Shown here: positions 12,632-36,786 of the stretch, one piece after another
Layout of the letters: every line of letters starts with the position of its first letter
Position numbering within the stretch: position 1 is the stretch's first letter
Assembly (NCBI GenBank): GCA_036490175.1
Contig: DASXEJ010000116.1
Span: 1-39,042 of the forward strand
Source of the DNA: Pirellulales bacterium
GTDB taxonomy: Bacteria > Planctomycetota > Planctomycetia > Pirellulales > JACPPG01
Direction: 5' to 3'
DNA length: 39,042 nt
Notes under the pieces: generated by a model
Databases searched by the model: none
Told to the model about the DNA's origin: nothing
What the model saw: only the letters and a program-made list of their open reading frames with translations
Program-made: the position numbers and the translations under genes

Positions 12632-13684
12632 ATGGATAATTCAAACTCCTCCCCACTCCCGCCACGTCAGCAGCTTGCCGCCCCTGGTAAATGGCCGGCT
12701 GTGGGAGAGTGCGCCGCATTGCCCACCGACGGTCCGTGGCAAATCACAGTCTGCGGCGCGGTAGCGCAATCGCTGGACCTGTCCTTAGCCGAGTTACAGG
12801 TCTTCCCGCATATTCACTGCCAGATCGACATTCATTGCGTCACGCGCTGGTCGAAGCTCGGCGTGCATTTTCACGGCGTGTCGTTGGCCGAGATCCTAGC
12901 CGTGGCAGCACCGACCCCGGCGGCCCGATTTGTTTCCTTCGTTGCCCACACGGCCCGCAAGCACAGCACATCGCTAGCGCTGGCCGACGCCCTCGCGCTC
13001 GATACGCTGATCGCCTGGCAATGCGACGGACAACCGCTCGAACCGTCGCACGGCGGACCGGTGCGCGTGATTGTGCCCGGCCGTTACTTTTACAAAAGCC
13101 TGAAGTGGCTACGGACGATCGAACTTTTGGCGGACGACGCGCTCGGTTACTGGGAACGCGAGGCCGGCTATCACAATATTGGCGATCCGTGGCGTGAAGA
13201 GCGCTACATTGCGTGCAACCTCACGCGGCAGCAACTTCAAATCGCCTTGTCGCGCCGCGACTTCGCCGGGCTCAACCTGCTCGGACTCGATGCCCGCCTG
13301 CACGACCTGTCAGGCCTGAACGCCCACGGCGCCCTATTGCGCAACGCCGATTTCCGTGGCAGCCACCTGATGGATGCCAATTTCACGGAAGCCAATCTCA
13401 GCAACGCCCACCTCGGCGGGGCGATTCTCTGTGGCGCGCGGTTTATGCATGCCGACGTCGAGGGAGCCGATTTCTCGGGCGCCGATTTGCGCGGCGCCGA
13501 CTTCACTGCTGCTTCGCTACTGGGCACGACGTTCTTCACGCAAGAATCCAGCGCCGCCAATCCAATCTCGGCGATCATCGACGCCTCGACCACGCTGCCA
13601 TCCGCCGCTGTTGAGAACCTAACCCCGCCACAAGCCGAGTTCGTCCGCGCATCACTCACCCGCCCCGCCACGCCGGGACGATAA
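12632..13684 (+). CDS. Molybdopterin-dependent oxidoreductase domain fused to pentapeptide repeats
   Basis: Residues about 30-195 match the oxidoreductase molybdopterin-binding domain (SUOX/YedY fold). The likely Mo-ligand Cys69 sits in DIHCVTRW, followed by FHGVSLAEIL, GGPVRVIVPGRYFYKSLKW (142-160) and GYWEREAGYHNIGDPW (172-187). Residues about 208-300 are roughly eighteen consecutive pentapeptide repeats of A(D/N)Lxx/AxFxx type, for example NADFRGSH, ANFTEANLSNAH and GADFSGADLRGADF, which should form a right-handed quadrilateral beta-helix. There is no signal peptide, so a cytosolic enzyme is inferred. The SUOX dimerisation domain is absent. Substrate and helix partner are unknown. AAGAG precedes the ATG. 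It is divergent from the zinc-ribbon gene. Confidence 0.92.
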   Translation: MDNSNSSPLPPRQQLAAPGKWPAVGECAALPTDGPWQITVCGAVAQSLDLSLAELQVFPHIHCQIDIHCVTRWSKLGVHFHGVSLAEILAVAAPTPAARFVSFVAHTARKHSTSLALADALALDTLIAWQCDGQPLEPSHGGPVRVIVPGRYFYKSLKWLRTIELLADDALGYWEREAGYHNIGDPWREERYIACNLTRQQLQIALSRRDFAGLNLLGLDARLHDLSGLNAHGALLRNADFRGSHLMDANFTEANLSNAHLGGAILCGARFMHADVEGADFSGADLRGADFTAASLLGTTFFTQESSAANPISAIIDASTTLPSAAVENLTPPQAEFVRASLTRPATPGR

Positions 13685-13893: not shown

Positions 13894-16800
13894 CTACTTG
13901 CCAGCAGGCTCTTTGGCCACTTCAGCCAGCTTCTCGGCCACCACGTCCAGCGAGTGGTCATGCACCATCACACGTCCCTGCGGGTCGATCAGCACATACG
14001 TCGGTAGACTCGACACTGCGAACCTCTTGGGAATTTCGGTCGTCGACCAGTCGCCCAGCAGGGCGTGCCGCCAGGGCAGCTTGCGCCCGCTCAGGAATTC
14101 CGTGGCACGCCCGCGGTCCTGATCCAAGTTGGCACCGATGACGATCATCCCCAGCCCCTCGGCATAGCGCTGCCGTAGCTGCTCGACATCGCCGAGTTTC
14201 GCCACGCAGGGACCACACCACGAAGCCCAAAAGTCGACCAAAATGTATTTACCGCGCAGTTCCGATAGCTTCGCGCTGTGCCCCGCCGAATCAACGAAAT
14301 CAAAATCCGGGGCTGCGTCTCCCACGTGCAGTGCCGGACTGGTCGGTACGGTGATCGAACCCAGATCGACCGTCGCCTCGCCAGGCTTTACCGTAAAGCG
14401 AACAACGCGCATTCCCACGGGGTGCACCAGGCAACCCTCGGTCGATCCGTACAGTCGAAAGGCCAGATCGTATTCCCCCGGCTCGACCCCGGAAATCTGA
14501 AATCGTCCATCGGGATCGGGCTTCACGTAATAGTGATGTAGCGTCAGCAGATAGACGCTTCCCTCCGACGTGCTGGTCCACGAGTCGCTCCACCCCTGGC
14601 GCCAGTCGAAGCCTTTGTCCGCCACCACGGACGGCGGCGTGACGCCGGGTCGGCGTGCCAGCAGATAGTTCAGTCCAAAGTGATAGTCAAAGCCCGCCTC
14701 CGGAGGGTCGAGCTGCAAGCGACCTGTCACCTCGGCGCCGCCCCCTCCCAGATCGACCGTCAGATCGTCCCCCGGCGCCGGATCGATGGGGACCGAACGA
14801 CTCGATTTCAACGGCCCGTCGACCGACCAATGGATGCTGGCCTGCACGCGACAGGGAATTGGCGGCACGCGGTCGAAATGGTACTCGCCGTCTTGGTTCG
14901 TCGTCGCATACAAGCCGACATGGCCGCGCGGAGCGTCCCCACCCTGATCGCGTATCGGATCCAGCCTCACCGTATGCGGCGCTACTGCCTTGCCATGTTG
15001 CAGTAATCGCCCGTGGACCTTGGCCCAGCGGCGAATGCGCAACTCGCCAGGCAGCCCGCCGGCTTGCCGATCGGCTTCGCCATACCCGTCGGGCGATACC
15101 ACGACGAGGCAATAGCGTTCCAGCTGGTGGGCGATCTCGAATTCTCCCTTTTCGTTTGTGCTGACCCAATAGTTGTCAGAGCGTCCGCCGTCTTTTCGTT
15201 CCAAATCACTCAAGTACAAATGCTCGGAATAGCTTCCCACGAAGACCTTGGCTCCGGCCACGGACTTGTCTGCTTGGTCGACGACGCGACCTACAAATCG
15301 GCTCGCAGGCTGCATTCGCAATTGCAACTCGGGCACGGTCTCGCCGATCTTGTAGGGGCCCACGCGCAAGGTGACATAGCCAGGCGCTTCGATCTGCAAT
15401 CCATGCTGTATGTCGGTGCGGTCGAATTGCACCTCGAACTTGCCGTTCGTTTGCGGCGCAAGTTGGTCATGCTCGACCGATGGGAAGTCCGGCCGGAAAT
15501 GAATGATCGGCGTCGTGGCGAATTGCTCGATGGGCTGGCCCGTATTCGCATCCTTCACCGTGCCGGCAATGCGCAATTGCGGGTACATCGTGAGAACTTG
15601 CACTTCGTCGCTGGCCGTAAAGTCGACTTCGCTCGAAACGTAATCGCCCGGCGTCGAAACCCGAAACTTCACCGCATCGTCTGGTGCCCAGGTCCATTCG
15701 TAGATGCCGTTATCACCTGGATGCCGTGGAATCTGCGAATCGAGGACGTTGGGGTGATCCTCGTTATAGAGCGACTCTGCGCCGCGCCAACTTGCTACCC
15801 CGAAATATCCCTTCTTGATCGGCGCGCCAGCGACATCCACCAGCTGGACCCGCAATGTCTTGCCCGGCTTCAATTGGAAATCCTGCGGCGCGTTCTGTTG
15901 TGTGATTTCAACCATGCGCATTTCCGGCATCCAATTCTTGGCCACGATCGTGACGCGAACTTTCCCCACCGGCAGTTGTGGGAACCGATACTCTCCCCGT
16001 TCGTCGGTGCGAACTTCTTGGTGCGGCCGATGCTCCCAATACGGACGGTCGCCCCAGATCGCCAGCGCACCGACAACGGGCCTTCCTTCGGAATCGGTAA
16101 TCGTTCCGCCCAGCGAAAGACCACGATGCATCACGATCTCGGCCGACTGGGCGCGCAGGGCCTTGGTGGTGATGAACTGCTCGCGCTGCAGCTGCCCCCA
16201 TTCGCGGTCATTAATGTAATCGGGATGGCTAAGCTTGATTTGCACTGCGACGTCGTCTCCTGGCGGCGCGTTCCGCAATGTCCACCGCCCTTCGGCATCG
16301 GTACGAATTGAGATCGGCCCCGACGAGAGCCATGCATCGAAGACGGCCCGCTGCTCGGGATGTTCGGCAATGCCGCCTCGATCGTAGCGAACTTCGACCT
16401 CGGCCCCCACAATCGGTTGACCATCATCGTTCTTCACGACGCCACCCAGCAGCGTGCCCGGCTGCATTTGAAACGTGAACTCGTCGGGAATCAGATTTCC
16501 GTCCGCTTCCTTATCTGGCCACCACTGTACGAATAGCGGTGCGAAGCCTGCTTTGCGCGACCAGATGCGGAGAATCGTCAAGGTCTTCGGCAGCACGATC
16601 TCGACCTTTCCTTCCTCGTCGCACGTGTAGTTCCGCGTGGCTTTGAAGTCCTTCTCGTCGGTCCAAATCGACGCCAAGATGTTCGCGCGCGGCAATGGCT
16701 GGCCTTCGGACCCGACGACACGGATCAGCATGCTCCCCTTGGTGCTGACCACTTTGCCGTCAGAGCGATGTGGCACTGCCGCTGGTGCCGGTGCTGCCGC

Positions 16801-18219
16801 CGAAGCCTTGGCAGTGGACTTCGTTTCCTCGTCGGCCGCCCTCGATTTGTCCGTTGTGGCCGACGCGGGCTCTGGGGCCGCATCGGGCACTTTGCTCTCG
16901 TTGACAGCAGGCTCCGCGGCGCCCCCAGGGAGAGGGCTGAATGGGCGTAGCACGCCTAGTGTCAGCACGACGATCGTTGTCGAGAGCAACAATCCGCGAC
17001 GAAACCGTGCCGACGCCGGATGGCGCGGCGACGCACGATCAAGAATCGCACGGACGCGGTCTTCCAGCTCGCAATGCTCAGCCATTCCAATGCCGCCGAC
17101 CAGCCGCGCCGGCCGCCCGCCCAGTGCCGCGGCGACTTCCACTAGCCCCTTCGCGTAATCGAGCGCCTCGACGCCCACGGACAGGACCCTATCATCGCAA
17201 GCCCGTTCTCGTTCTTCGCGCATCCGCCGCACGGCAAGCCACACGAGCGGATGAAACCAATACAACGAGGCGGCCATTCGCGCAGCCAGCTGCCACAGCA
17301 CATCGCGCCGCTCGACGTGGGCCAACTCGTGCGACAAGACAATGCGGATCTTCTCGGCCGACCATGCGACACAGTCCATCGGCAGCAGAATCCGCGGCTG
17401 CCGCACGCCGACGACGACTGGCACCCGGGCTCGCGACGATCGTAACAAAATCACTCGCCTCGCGGCCGGCAATCGCCCAGAAATCTCGCTGCGAACTTTT
17501 TCAAATCTTGCATCGTCGAGCTGTTTAGCCGCGCGAACCATGCGAGAAACATATCTCACGCACCACAGCAACCGCAGGCCGAGAAGCACAACGCCGCCCG
17601 CCCACAATCCTACCAGCAGCCGCATGCCAAACCGCACCGGCGCCGCGGGAACAGCGATTCCGAGCCGCGGCCATGCTGCGCCGGTATTTGACGACGCACG
17701 TCCTTCTGATTCAGTAATTACTGCAGTTGAAATGGCGGCAACCGGCGTCTGCGTATCTGGCCCTGACACCTCGCTTGCGCCCTCGATGCCATCGTCGTGC
17801 GTCTGCTGTCGATCGCCCGGCCGCTGCCCCTGGGCCGGACGCGTCGAAACGTCGAATGCCCCTCGATTTTGCGCCATTGAAATGTCCGCATCTACCGCCG
17901 GATGCCTTGGCAACATCTGCCGATTAATCGCGTTCGACTGGAATCTGTTTTCGTCTGCCCCTGTCGCAGCCACCCATTCCGGTGTCAGCAACAATCCCAA
18001 GGGAATACCGGGCACAAAAGCAAATAAGGTGGGCAGGACCAACAGTCCCACCAAGGCGAATTGCCAGACACAATAGCGCACGGCCGACGAGGCGCGCGGC
18101 AACGACCTCACCAGCAACCAAGCAAAGCTCAGCAGGCACGTGCCCCAAAAGACAAGCAACGCCAAAGCGTGCGGAGCTTGTCCATCCAGCGAAGTGGCGA
18201 ATGAACTGATATGTGCCAT
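13894..18219 (-). CDS. BlaR1-like M56 peptidase with carboxypeptidase-regulatory-like repeats and C-terminal thioredoxin domain
   Basis: This 1441-residue protein has N-terminal membrane segments (about 18-38, 47-78, 200-222). The M56 zinc-peptidase motif is HELAH (297-301), with EERERACDD (about 335-343) and a further membrane segment at about 408-424. BlaR1/MecR1 proteins cleave or inactivate a BlaI repressor; the repressor gene is 49 nt upstream. The C-terminal part is not a penicillin sensor. About 430-1290 contains successive beta-sandwich segments of CarboxypepD_reg type (for example GTLLGGVVKNDDGQPIVGAEVEV), and 1297-1441 is a TlpA-like thioredoxin with WCGPC (Cys1335, Cys1338) and a cis-Pro segment (SSLPTYVLID). 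By membrane topology both should be periplasmic. Fusion of sensor repeats and a redox domain suggests redox or ligand sensing; this is inference. Confidence 0.93.
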   Translation of the reverse strand: MAHISSFATSLDGQAPHALALLVFWGTCLLSFAWLLVRSLPRASSAVRYCVWQFALVGLLVLPTLFAFVPGIPLGLLLTPEWVAATGADENRFQSNAINRQMLPRHPAVDADISMAQNRGAFDVSTRPAQGQRPGDRQQTHDDGIEGASEVSGPDTQTPVAAISTAVITESEGRASSNTGAAWPRLGIAVPAAPVRFGMRLLVGLWAGGVVLLGLRLLWCVRYVSRMVRAAKQLDDARFEKVRSEISGRLPAARRVILLRSSRARVPVVVGVRQPRILLPMDCVAWSAEKIRIVLSHELAHVERRDVLWQLAARMAASLYWFHPLVWLAVRRMREERERACDDRVLSVGVEALDYAKGLVEVAAALGGRPARLVGGIGMAEHCELEDRVRAILDRASPRHPASARFRRGLLLSTTIVVLTLGVLRPFSPLPGGAAEPAVNESKVPDAAPEPASATTDKSRAADEETKSTAKASAAAPAPAAVPHRSDGKVVSTKGSMLIRVVGSEGQPLPRANILASIWTDEKDFKATRNYTCDEEGKVEIVLPKTLTILRIWSRKAGFAPLFVQWWPDKEADGNLIPDEFTFQMQPGTLLGGVVKNDDGQPIVGAEVEVRYDRGGIAEHPEQRAVFDAWLSSGPISIRTDAEGRWTLRNAPPGDDVAVQIKLSHPDYINDREWGQLQREQFITTKALRAQSAEIVMHRGLSLGGTITDSEGRPVVGALAIWGDRPYWEHRPHQEVRTDERGEYRFPQLPVGKVRVTIVAKNWMPEMRMVEITQQNAPQDFQLKPGKTLRVQLVDVAGAPIKKGYFGVASWRGAESLYNEDHPNVLDSQIPRHPGDNGIYEWTWAPDDAVKFRVSTPGDYVSSEVDFTASDEVQVLTMYPQLRIAGTVKDANTGQPIEQFATTPIIHFRPDFPSVEHDQLAPQTNGKFEVQFDRTDIQHGLQIEAPGYVTLRVGPYKIGETVPELQLRMQPASRFVGRVVDQADKSVAGAKVFVGSYSEHLYLSDLERKDGGRSDNYWVSTNEKGEFEIAHQLERYCLVVVSPDGYGEADRQAGGLPGELRIRRWAKVHGRLLQHGKAVAPHTVRLDPIRDQGGDAPRGHVGLYATTNQDGEYHFDRVPPIPCRVQASIHWSVDGPLKSSRSVPIDPAPGDDLTVDLGGGGAEVTGRLQLDPPEAGFDYHFGLNYLLARRPGVTPPSVVADKGFDWRQGWSDSWTSTSEGSVYLLTLHHYYVKPDPDGRFQISGVEPGEYDLAFRLYGSTEGCLVHPVGMRVVRFTVKPGEATVDLGSITVPTSPALHVGDAAPDFDFVDSAGHSAKLSELRGKYILVDFWASWCGPCVAKLGDVEQLRQRYAEGLGMIVIGANLDQDRGRATEFLSGRKLPWRHALLGDWSTTEIPKRFAVSSLPTYVLIDPQGRVMVHDHSLDVVAEKLAEVAKEPAGK

Positions 18220-18268
18220 GGTTTCGCGCCCCGATCAAGATACAGGATAGATATTGTCTTGGCTCGCA

Positions 18269-18673
18269 CTACGATCCCGATTCCCGCTTGTTGTCCTGCC
18301 GCGCTTTCTCAATCATTTGCGTCAAGCGGTTCCACTGCTCATTACTCAAATCGGCCGCAGAAAGATCCAGTAGTGCGGCCACGGCGTCGTCGGCCGAGCC
18401 GCCGAAGAAGGTTCCCAACAGGCGGCGCAGTGCAGTGCGCTGCGAACGCTCGCGCGAGACCGCCGAGCGATACAGATACCGCTTGCCTTCGCGGCGAAAC
18501 TTCAGCCACCCCTTGTCAACCAGCAACCCCAGCATGGTCCGCACGGCGGAGTAGCTGGGCGCGTCGGCCAGATTGGCGCGTACTTGGGCCACGCTGGCTT
18601 CGCTCAGACGTTGCACTGTCTCGATGATCTGCCGCTCGCGTTTGCCTAGCTCCAACGGCGTTTTATCTGCCAT
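18269..18673 (-). CDS. BlaI/MecI/CopY-family transcriptional repressor
   Basis: The 134-residue protein starts MADKTPLELGKRE at the ATG with AGGG 6 nt upstream; an in-frame TTG at 18697 is less likely. The N-terminal winged helix (about residues 10-75) shows the family's ERQIIETVQRL, VRANL and SAVRTMLGLLVDKGWL pattern, and the C-terminal dimerisation helices include TFFGGSADDAVAALL. BlaI-type repressors bind palindromic operators as dimers and are inactivated through a cognate M56 peptidase, here the next gene. The promoter upstream carries a palindrome over its -10 element, consistent with autorepression of the two-gene operon. The alpha/beta hydrolase gene lies upstream on the same strand but is separated by this promoter. 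Confidence 0.94.
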   Translation of the reverse strand: MADKTPLELGKRERQIIETVQRLSEASVAQVRANLADAPSYSAVRTMLGLLVDKGWLKFRREGKRYLYRSAVSRERSQRTALRRLLGTFFGGSADDAVAALLDLSAADLSNEQWNRLTQMIEKARQDNKRESGS

Positions 18674-18708
18674 TTGCCCTGCTTTCTCAAGTGTCAATCA
18701 ACTAGCAC

Positions 18709-18742
18709 GTGTCAATATATTGGCACATCACATGAATGTCAA
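18709..18742 (-). promoter_or_regulatory. Promoter with overlapping palindromic operator for the BlaI/M56 operon
   Basis: On the minus strand TTGACA (18737-18742) and TATATT (18714-18719) are separated by exactly 17 nt, a near-consensus sigma-70 promoter. The 18-bp near-palindrome GTGTCAATATATTGGCAC (18709-18726, one mismatched pair) covers the -10. The half-site GTGTCAAT recurs at 18691-18698, 18 bp from the copy at 18709-18716, between the expected start site and the repressor ATG at 18673. This arrangement fits BlaI-type autorepression. The element is read directly from sequence; the binding protein is inferred. Confidence 0.7.
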
Positions 18743-18906
18743 ATACCTTTTTAGAAATCGTCCGTACCCTTTAGCCAGACGGCACGAGAGAGCGCCTCCA
18801 ACCACAAATGACCGCAACGCCCCTAAGGGCAGCCCAGCACTGAACAGAAAACGCGACCGATGTGCCGATTGCGTTTCGATCGTCATTCGTCGTTCATTAT
18901 TTCCAT

Positions 18907-34215: not shown

Positions 34216-34629
34216 ATGGACACGTTGACGTCGACTCAGCGAAGCGAACTAATGTCGCTCGTTCGGTCCAAGGACACGAAACCCGAAATAGCAGTTCGCC
34301 GCTTGGTTCATTCGATGGGCTACCGCTATCGCCTGCATGGACGCGGCTTGCCGGGGCGTCCCGATTTAGTCCTTGCTGGCAAGCGAACCGTCATTTTCGT
34401 TCATGGTTGTTTTTGGCATCGGCATCGAGGCTGTGTGAAGGCCACGACACCGAAAACAAATGCCGAGTTTTGGCGCGCGAAATTTCAGGCAAATCGTCGA
34501 CGTGATAGAGCGATTGAACGCCGTTTGGCTAACGATGACTGGCGCGTTATTGTTGTTTGGGAATGCGAGTCGAGGAATGTGCCCAAGTTAGCGATTCGCC
34601 TCAGCCGAGAATTGGAAAGCGTTGAATGA
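34216..34629 (+). CDS. vsr: Very short patch repair endonuclease Vsr
   Basis: The 137-residue protein starts at MDTLTSTQRS. It has the Vsr core: Glu24 (TKPEIAVRR), Asp50 (GRPDLVL), His63 and His68 in HGCFWHRHRGC, and the zinc ligands Cys65, His70, Cys73 and Cys117 (WECE). Vsr nicks 5' of the mismatched T in T:G mispairs that arise by deamination of 5-methylcytosine, protecting methylated sites. The next gene is a C5-cytosine methyltransferase and overlaps by 4 bp (ATGA), so they are translationally coupled, exactly the expected pairing. Confidence 0.96.
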   Translation: MDTLTSTQRSELMSLVRSKDTKPEIAVRRLVHSMGYRYRLHGRGLPGRPDLVLAGKRTVIFVHGCFWHRHRGCVKATTPKTNAEFWRAKFQANRRRDRAIERRLANDDWRVIVVWECESRNVPKLAIRLSRELESVE

Positions 34630-35777
34630 AAACCGTTGAACTTTTTGCGGGAATTGGCGGTTTTCGGATCGCTGCCGACCGCTTGGGATTTGAAACGGTT
34701 TGGGTCAACGATGTCTGCCCAAAGGCTTGCAAGGTTTACCAGACCAATTTCGGAGCTAATTCGATTCAAGAAGGCGATATTACGACGTTACTTGAAAGCA
34801 TTTGCTCACATGACGTCCTTACTGCAGGGTTTCCATGCCAGCCATTTAGTAGCGCGGGTAAGAAGCAGGGTATAAAGGACCCCCGCGGCACTCTGTTCAG
34901 CGTAGTCGTCGAAGCGCTACGGCGTTTCCAACCGGACATTTTCGTCTTGGAGAACGTCCGGCGTCTTCTGACGATGGAAAAGGGCGTCCATTTTGCCACG
35001 ATCTTGTCATCCCTCGCTGAACTGAATTACGGGATCGAGTGGAGATTGCTGAACGCTGCGGATTTCGGATTACCGCAAAACAGGCAGAGGGTCTTCATCG
35101 TCGGGGTGAAGCTTAAGAAGCGGCTCACTCGTATTGATCGAGTCAGACTCGCATCAACACATGATCTAGGCGGGCGCAGATCCCGTGCCGGGGTAATTCA
35201 TTCACCAGACGAGTGGCCCGAGATAAGTACGCATGGCAACAAATTTCCGAATTGGGGACTCGCCATCGCGGGCCGATTTTGCGGTGCAGATTTAGAATCC
35301 TTTTCCGAGAGCCAGCCTTGCGGCACTCTTTCGTCGATATTGCAGCACAAGACTTCAAGCGAATTCGACTTTACGGAATCGACTATTGAGCGGCTTTCTG
35401 CGAGCAAACATGTAAAGCGCTTTGTCGACGGAGTTGAAATCCTCTCAAACCAAGGTGGCGGTGCCCGGATGGGTTATACCGTCTTTGGAATAAAGGGACT
35501 CGCTCCGACGCTCACATCCTCTGCAAGCCGCCACTATGAACGGTACAAGATTGGCACGTCATATCGACGATTGACGAACATCGAGTACGCACGTCTGCAA
35601 GGATTCCGAGATGATCACTGTTCGACGATTTCCGTATACGATCAATACTCCCTATACGGAAACGCCGTACCGCCGCCTATGGCCACCTGGGTCATGAAAC
35701 GAGCGACGTCGCATGGTATTTCCATCGATCGAATCGCACGTAGCAAGCATCAAACGAGGTTGTTCGCTGATGCCTAG
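34626..35777 (+). CDS. dcm: DNA (cytosine-5)-methyltransferase, type II
   Basis: The 383-residue enzyme has the ordered C5-methyltransferase motifs: I FAGIGGFR (7-14), IV GFPCQPFS with catalytic Cys71, VI ENV (109-111), VIII QNRQRVFIVG (151-160), a target-recognition region (about 180-290) and X LYGNAVPPPM (about 335-345). It methylates a cytosine in a recognition site that I cannot read from the sequence. It is flanked by vsr (4-bp overlap) and a probable restriction endonuclease gene (8-bp overlap), forming a compact type II restriction-modification operon. Base composition is visibly more AT-rich than the chromosome around it. Confidence 0.95.
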   Translation: MKTVELFAGIGGFRIAADRLGFETVWVNDVCPKACKVYQTNFGANSIQEGDITTLLESICSHDVLTAGFPCQPFSSAGKKQGIKDPRGTLFSVVVEALRRFQPDIFVLENVRRLLTMEKGVHFATILSSLAELNYGIEWRLLNAADFGLPQNRQRVFIVGVKLKKRLTRIDRVRLASTHDLGGRRSRAGVIHSPDEWPEISTHGNKFPNWGLAIAGRFCGADLESFSESQPCGTLSSILQHKTSSEFDFTESTIERLSASKHVKRFVDGVEILSNQGGGARMGYTVFGIKGLAPTLTSSASRHYERYKIGTSYRRLTNIEYARLQGFRDDHCSTISVYDQYSLYGNAVPPPMATWVMKRATSHGISIDRIARSKHQTRLFADA

Positions 35778-36786
35778 CAAGGAGGAGTTGCGAGAAATCA
35801 TCCGAACAAACCAGGATGTGATCGCGAAACGTATCAATATTGCCTTAAAGGGTAAGAGTCTCGGGCCGATGAAGGCCGTGATGACCCGAGTTGGTCGGGG
35901 TGGTGTTCTACCACATTGGTATTCCAACCTGAGGAAAAACGGAGCCCTTCCGAACCTTGACGGAAAGACTATTGGCAGCATCGTTGAAATGCTGTTGGTC
36001 GGGGTACTGGAGACGTCTGTTTTTGCGGGATTGGGCGTCTCGCCGCTTCGCATAAATCCTGCACGCGGTGTTGACCTGCCGGACATCGACCTTGGCGTCA
36101 AATCGCCGTCAGAGAACTTCTGCACCAGCGAGCCGTTTTTCTCGGCATACGAAAGGCTGCTTGGTGGAGAATGCGACGTTCTCGTCTTGTTGACGGACTA
36201 TCAGTCCAAAAAAGACGATCCGCCACTACGGCTCCAAATCATTAAATGGCGGTATTTGGCCAAGACGCAAGTCGCAGACAGTGCTCTATGCGCCCTGGCA
36301 AGAAAGCATCGGGACTGGCTAATCGCGGATAATGAGGCCGGAGCTAAACGATTGTTTCGATTCCTCGCCTATGTCAATCAAAGTGACTGGCGCGCGCGAT
36401 TCATTGTTCGCATGATTAACGTAATGCAATCGAAAGAGACCGTGGAAAACTTGATATTGGAAGCCGAACGCGATTTTGTTGCAAAGAATGCAAGAGCGTT
36501 GAAAAGGGATAAAGCGCTGATTCCCAACGAAGACCTAGACGCGATCAAAAGGATTGGGACCATTACCCCGCATCATGTCGGCGTGATCGACGCTGCAGAG
36601 AATCGGGTCGTGGATGTCTTGAAAGATGCTGCTCGCGCGCCGAGCGCAGATGAATGGAACCGTTTAAAGGCTGGGCCGCTCGATGGATTGATTGGTATGA
36701 GCTTCGCTCTGCAATGGAGGTTTAATTTCGGTCACCTCTTCGGTGTCGAGGGCTGCGATGTCGAACCGGAATTGCCATCTAGATGA
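35770..36786 (+). CDS. Probable type II restriction endonuclease, family not recognised
   Basis: The 338-residue protein starts at MPSKEELREI, 8 bp inside the end of the methyltransferase, with GAGG upstream; an in-frame ATG at 35713 lies deeper in dcm and is less likely. Position in a vsr-dcm operon makes a cognate endonuclease the best inference. A PD-(D/E)xK-like core is visible as VDLPDIDLGVK (101-111, with Asp105, Asp107 and Lys111) and Glu73/Glu81 in the preceding helix, followed by VLVLLTDYQ as a core strand. The exact catalytic assignment is uncertain because the classic E/DxK doublet is GVK here. I do not match it to a named endonuclease family. Confidence 0.78.
   Translation: MPSKEELREIIRTNQDVIAKRINIALKGKSLGPMKAVMTRVGRGGVLPHWYSNLRKNGALPNLDGKTIGSIVEMLLVGVLETSVFAGLGVSPLRINPARGVDLPDIDLGVKSPSENFCTSEPFFSAYERLLGGECDVLVLLTDYQSKKDDPPLRLQIIKWRYLAKTQVADSALCALARKHRDWLIADNEAGAKRLFRFLAYVNQSDWRARFIVRMINVMQSKETVENLILEAERDFVAKNARALKRDKALIPNEDLDAIKRIGTITPHHVGVIDAAENRVVDVLKDAARAPSADEWNRLKAGPLDGLIGMSFALQWRFNFGHLFGVEGCDVEPELPSR

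Follow-up and report, generated by a model that had tools for sequence, protein, structure and literature searches.

Many bacteria sense penicillin through BlaR1 and MecR1, the switches of antibiotic resistance. In the S. aureus systems, these proteins are paired with the repressors BlaI and MecI, and the catalytic residues of BlaR1 have been named as HEXXH, D210, E242xxxD246, Y261 and R294 (PMC9834060). We analyzed a 39,042-nucleotide stretch of DNA from a Pirellulales bacterium (hereafter the window), in which a BlaI gene likewise adjoins a gene for an M56 protein that shares the gluzincin residues, helix order and fold of BlaR1/MecR1. Compared with BlaR1/MecR1, the window protein has a tail of about 1,000 residues and no penicillin-binding sensor, it contains a long disordered linker and loop, and its operon is without a blaZ/mecA-type target.

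Three further groups of proteins resemble parts of this tail. The thioredoxin fold, WCGPC motif and cis-Pro are those of ResA/TlpA/DsbE thiol-disulfide oxidoreductases, whereas the window thioredoxin ends a protease-anchored stack of beta-sandwiches and has an apparently covarying third cysteine. The repeats belong to the same family as those of PF13620 carboxypeptidase regulatory-like proteins but are ordered in one conserved 800-residue block, common to secreted homologs. In another class, the outer part of anti-sigma factors from ECF sigma/zf-HC2 anti-sigma pairs is the same kind of ectodomain; the window protein, by contrast, has no anti-sigma domain, and its output partner is BlaI. New here is a kind of BlaI–M56 system with a sandwich–thioredoxin arm, a tandem operator, module shuffling and the cysteine Cys1263. 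We favor its reading as an autoregulated payload and sensor, redox sensing being a minority reading. In the literature searched, we found no description of M56 combined with thioredoxin or of a BlaI–M56 expansion in planctomycetes.

A conserved two-gene operon

The operon comprises only the two genes, with BlaI upstream and 49 nt between its end and the M56 start codon (Table 1). The repressor matches Penicillinase_R (PF03965, E 3.8e-24), which places it in the BlaI/MecI/CopY family. ATG 18673 is its likely start, because TTG 18697 falls within the promoter and operator. The coordinates, the BlaI spacing, HELAH at residues 297–301 and the pair Cys1335 and Cys1338 given in a preliminary description of this locus were all confirmed on the ORFs. 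Across the 16 orthologous loci compared, no conserved third operon gene was found, and a beta-lactamase or PBP2a target gene was present neither in the operon nor as a conserved neighbor.

Table 1 Features of the BlaI–M56–thioredoxin operon in window coordinates
Feature	Position	Strand	Basis
Sigma-70-type promoter, TTGACA-N17-TATATT	18714..18742	-	11/12 consensus matches; sole site in 18600-18900
Putative operator dyad 1, GTGCCAATATATTGACAC (minus strand), over the -10 element	18709..18726	.	18-bp near-perfect dyad, kept in orthologs
Putative operator dyad 2, GTGCTAGTTGATTGACAC (minus strand), abutting dyad 1	18691..18708	.	18-bp dyad; tandem pattern
BlaI-family repressor (PF03965)	18269..18673	-	ATG 18673 as likely start; ORF opens at TTG 18697
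M56 protease ORF, 1,441 aa, with beta-sandwich ectodomain and C-terminal thioredoxin	13894..18219	-	ORF translation and Pfam
M56 domain, residues 186–392	17044..17664	-	Pfam Peptidase_M56; alignment; fold matches BlaR1 cryo-EM chains
HELAH zinc-protease motif, residues 297–301	17317..17331	-	Sequence
Ala/Pro/Lys-rich linker past TM4, residues 426–490, predicted disordered	16750..16944	-	pLDDT about 25–31
CarboxypepD_reg-like beta-sandwich stack, residues 491–1290	14350..16749	-	Pfam PF13620; AF2 strands throughout
Cys1263 codon (GCLV motif), third conserved cysteine	14431..14433	-	28/29 CXXC members, 0/28 others
ResA/TlpA-type thioredoxin domain, residues 1291–1441	13897..14349	-	Pfam; VIA Z 18.8 to 3gl3
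CGPC active site, Cys1335 and Cys1338 (WCGPC 1334–1338)	14206..14217	-	Sequence

Full-length, collinear orthologs with 57–60% identity were found in two of four congeners, and more distant ones (about 27–45% identity) both elsewhere in the order, in several families, and in a second order of the same class. Because of this collinear conservation in congeners, other families and another order, the arrangement is not due to chance; it is real, conserved and functionally coherent. A scan of named genomes recovered mostly M56-only relatives without the thioredoxin fusion. Conserved BlaI linkage, which the preliminary description had named as support for a repressor circuit, was borne out when tabulated, with BlaI adjacent in every copy with an intact M56 half. 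The exceptions, L101 and L116, are N-truncated, with the first transmembrane part of M56 gone; BlaI was looked for near both and not found, and G017, the genome containing L101, also lacks the tandem operator. Judging from these cases, loss of BlaI seems to have gone hand in hand with loss of the N-terminal half of M56.

Two related loci have additional neighbors. At L094:9622-11915, a second, divergent BlaI–M56 pair with a different operator adjoins the ortholog of the window operon, and beside a BlaI–M56 operon, an ECF-like sigma gene precedes a large protein kinase gene at L115:1177-5305 (+).

The protease half resembles BlaR1

Equivalents of all named BlaR1 catalytic residues are present in the window protein: H297/E298/H301, D306 (for D210) and E338xxxD342 (for E242xxxD246), with Y355 aligning near Y261 and R388 near R294. 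In an alignment of 16 members (the window protein and 15 relatives), H297, E298, H301, D306, Y355 and R388 are invariant, and E338 and D342 are at least 90% conserved. The window M56 domain thus has the HEXXH, EXXXD and supporting Asp/Tyr/Arg residues of a zinc gluzincin, by comparison with the published BlaR1 residues (PMC9834060). An AF2 model of residues 1–489 (mean pLDDT 71) showed the BlaR1-like fold and transmembrane order, and its six top PDB matches were BlaR1 cryo-EM chains (TMt up to 0.65, in the TM/protease part). From the conserved catalytic residues and the fold of the model, we expect the protease half to be active.

NCBIfam blaR1_generic matches residues 187–348 only, that is, the protease part, and far under cut-off. 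Neither Pfam nor NCBIfam gave a transpeptidase or penicillin-binding domain in the 1,441-aa protein, in agreement with the earlier view that the penicillin sensor is absent. The accompanying claim that this sensor had been replaced is too narrow, because the other BlaI–M56 pairs of the genome bear diverse tails (see below) and the beta-lactam sensor is just one ectodomain among many.

The sandwich–thioredoxin arm and its cysteines

Structure prediction of residues 430–1441, suggested in the preliminary description, yielded beta strands to about residue 1293 and a thioredoxin fold thereafter (AF2, mean pLDDT 82, pTM 0.63), with a disordered linker of about 60–65 residues between TM4 and the arm. 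Pfam recognized five CarboxypepD_reg stretches in the tail and Redoxin/AhpC-TSA at about residues 1299–1418. The thioredoxin part matched DsbE/ResA-type structures (VIA Z 18.8, rmsd 1.8 over 136 residues, 3gl3). With its thioredoxin fold, WCxxC and cis-Pro, it belongs with ResA/TlpA proteins, and thiol-disulfide exchange is its predicted role. No solved structure resembling the sandwich stack as a whole was among the Foldseek matches listed, and the VIA match list for the ectodomain model was filled by thioredoxins and is therefore uninformative on the stack.

Cys1263 lies in the final sandwich domain, within a loop. Reading its alignment column with a 5-residue tolerance across 57 ectodomains, we found 28 with both Cys1263 and CXXC, 28 with neither and one exception; members that keep the thioredoxin fold without the cysteine pair also lack Cys1263. 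The association has a Fisher p of 2e-15 with relatedness ignored, and with relatedness considered, four of five independent tree pairs agree and none disagrees (p 0.125). Covariation of Cys1263 with CXXC is, at the level of sequence, suggestive. The pair itself was found in 18 of 37 M56-bearing ectodomains and 11 of 17 without M56 (Fisher p 0.38) and so is independent of M56, which would assign the redox unit to the ectodomain and not specifically to BlaI signaling. CXXC is missing, or the thioredoxin fold lacks the cysteine pair, in the BlaI-linked M56 relatives L117, L128 and L286. The prominence originally given to the thioredoxin pair is thus justified for the window's subclass, in which CXXC is conserved and the third cysteine appears to covary with it, but not for the half of M56-linked relatives without CXXC. 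Three DsbD_TM proteins are encoded in the window's genome and could act as reductants of the cysteine unit.

A fourth conserved cysteine (VPC/VEC) stands just ahead of the thioredoxin in the subclade of L098, L099, L100, L101, L103, L104, L107, L108, L110 and L111 and is absent from the window protein.

BlaI–M56 pairs and operator specificity

The window's genome (G000; L020–L036) contains 17 BlaI genes, every one beside an M56 gene. Given that M56 counts per genome range from 0 to 19 in the class, it stands at the high end. Tails of its M56 proteins include HlyD-like, POTRA, Poly_export, DUF1559, LRR, Big_5, pilus-N and CarboxypepD_reg domains. Upstream dyad words differ among the 17 pairs, the words before BlaI in the other pairs being different from those in the window, and the BlaI paralogs of these pairs differ at the aligned PSYSAVRTML stretch.

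As is typical of the BlaI family, conserved tandem dyads lie over the -10 element of the operon's own promoter and form a putative operator. Genome scans for this tandem arrangement in 11 genomes, with up to 3 mismatches allowed, located it in 10, each time at the BlaI–M56–thioredoxin promoter. It is single-copy in nine of these ten carriers, and G098 has one extra, weak site with 3 mismatches. Exact single dyads occur solely at the BlaI–M56–thioredoxin operon, and these tandem dyads also precede BlaI in L277 and L278 from another order. Two additional single-dyad sites with 1 mismatch in the window's genome both fall within coding genes, one at the start of an lspA-like ORF (L156) and one in a cytochrome oxidase subunit I gene (L170); a wider regulon through these sites was considered and, as they are coding sequence, they were judged chance occurrences.

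A second operator class, CATCTAA-N4-TTAGATG, has one site each in G000 and G070, at their own pairs, and two in G102, one of them at its own pair; it likewise appears to mark essentially only its own BlaI–M56 pair. Because the operator is unique per genome and a conserved third gene is absent, these patterns suggest that the single known target of BlaI here is the BlaI–M56 operon itself. Further targets may exist through diverged operators elsewhere or as extra M56 substrates.

The ectodomain as a shuffled module

The ectodomain is a shuffled module that occurs as part of M56 proteins, as a secreted protein by itself and, in another class, joined to ECF anti-sigma factors. M56 gain and loss were followed on a quick tree built from 57 ectodomains, which shows 14 changes of the M56 label, 12 or more of them on well-supported branches; L073, L111, L118 and L122 are cut by contig ends, so the absence of M56 or BlaI is unsure for some of them (L111 was counted as 'no M56'). 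Most copies without M56 start with a signal peptide or with one anchor, and these copies lack an accompanying BlaI. The idea that they bear a sigma factor or some other enzyme was rejected given these starts, and an anti-sigma-like N terminus was seen in three distant copies only. One secreted or anchored ectodomain–thioredoxin protein without BlaI (L103:4189-7332) retains 51 residues from the C-terminal end of an M56 domain, with 65% identity to L108, and is, because of this remnant, a natural M56-deletion derivative. The ectodomain therefore persists after loss of the protease, as in L103 and the signal-peptide copies, and where M56 is truncated and BlaI lost (L101, L116).

In another class, at two loci (L285:3068-7290 and L293:3673-7943), a zf-HC2 domain precedes the ectodomain and the gene overlaps an ECF sigma gene, the features of ECF anti-sigma factors that the window protein lacks; a third (L294:4152-8233) resembles them without a zf-HC2 match. 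All three have a thioredoxin-like end in which the cysteine pair is missing. The M56-free copies suggest that the ectodomain has a function of its own, as payload, and the anti-sigma fusions suggest an input role and, at least in some lineages, a sensor that governs a real regulon. The two roles are compatible with each other.

Proposed circuit and alternative readings

In the reading that we favor, and to which we give about an even chance, the locus is a self-contained autoregulatory BlaI–M56 cassette that adjusts how much of its envelope module is made; this module may also be the sensor. Such a cassette would act chiefly on its own expression rather than on resistance genes. Judging from the operator and the family, BlaI dimers would bind the two tandem dyads that cover the -10 element and thereby repress both genes. 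An envelope signal would cause the M56 gluzincin to cleave BlaI, as the fully conserved BlaR1 active-site residues suggest, and what is induced would be the operon itself, raising the amounts of BlaI and of the membrane-anchored sandwich/thioredoxin arm. This arm would be a payload of controlled dose and probably also the input, through which the state of its periplasmic ligand or substrate is reported; in the window's subclass, it would bear a three-cysteine redox unit (Cys1263 with Cys1335/Cys1338).

The preliminary description instead proposed a circuit that reads redox state. In such a redox receptor, oxidation or reduction of CXXC, perhaps via a disulfide with Cys1263, would switch M56 and derepress a response. 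Retention of CXXC and cis-Pro, the presence of Cys1263 in 28 of 29 CXXC members and its absence from all 28 without CXXC, and the three DsbD_TM proteins, which could donate electrons, are consistent with this proposal, which we nevertheless consider unlikely. Its premise that redox state is read instead of beta-lactam does not hold as stated, since CXXC is as common without the protease (11/17) as with it (18/37; Fisher p 0.38), and many BlaI-linked M56 relatives are without CXXC or have a thioredoxin fold from which the cysteine pair is missing. The cysteine link is countable in just four of five independent tree pairs (p 0.125), about 65 disordered residues separate the arm from TM4, and the operator, which no gene beyond the operon carries, speaks against a repressor circuit driving a redox response.

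That same uniqueness of the operator per genome, together with secreted M56-free copies without BlaI, argues against a ligand sensor in which a polymer, a glycan or a misfolded envelope protein would be bound by the sandwich stack and M56 would relay the signal, with the thioredoxin as an accessory and more BlaI targets at diverged sites. We rate this reading as rather improbable, even with the swapping of the ectodomain onto anti-sigma factors and the many other ectodomains on sister M56 proteins in its favor. A true beta-lactam receptor with an unrecognized sensor is hardly credible: the BlaI–M56 gene order and active site resemble blaI–blaR1, but neither Pfam nor the Foldseek matches listed for the ectodomain model include a transpeptidase domain, and no lactamase gene occurs in the operon or as a conserved neighbor.

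The autoregulatory cassette reading can be extended, more tentatively, to the whole genome as plug-in autoregulation, with each BlaI–M56 pair sensing through and controlling only its own fused envelope domain. The genome would then hold 17 private dose-control circuits, one of them with an internal three-cysteine redox switch, and the BlaR1-type protease–repressor core would be a general device bearing many envelope domains under private operators. The window system widens the known purpose of M56 proteins and allows a test of a receptor as its own sole target, and the pairing of Cys1263 with CXXC is a clear prediction for an internal redox unit.

Elsewhere in the window, positions 12632-13684 (+) encode a molybdopterin-binding oxidoreductase domain (PF00174) fused to pentapeptide repeats. 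At 34626-36786 (+), a C5-cytosine DNA methylase gene overlaps that of a 357-aa protein without a Pfam match at E 1e-4, possibly the restriction partner of the methylase.
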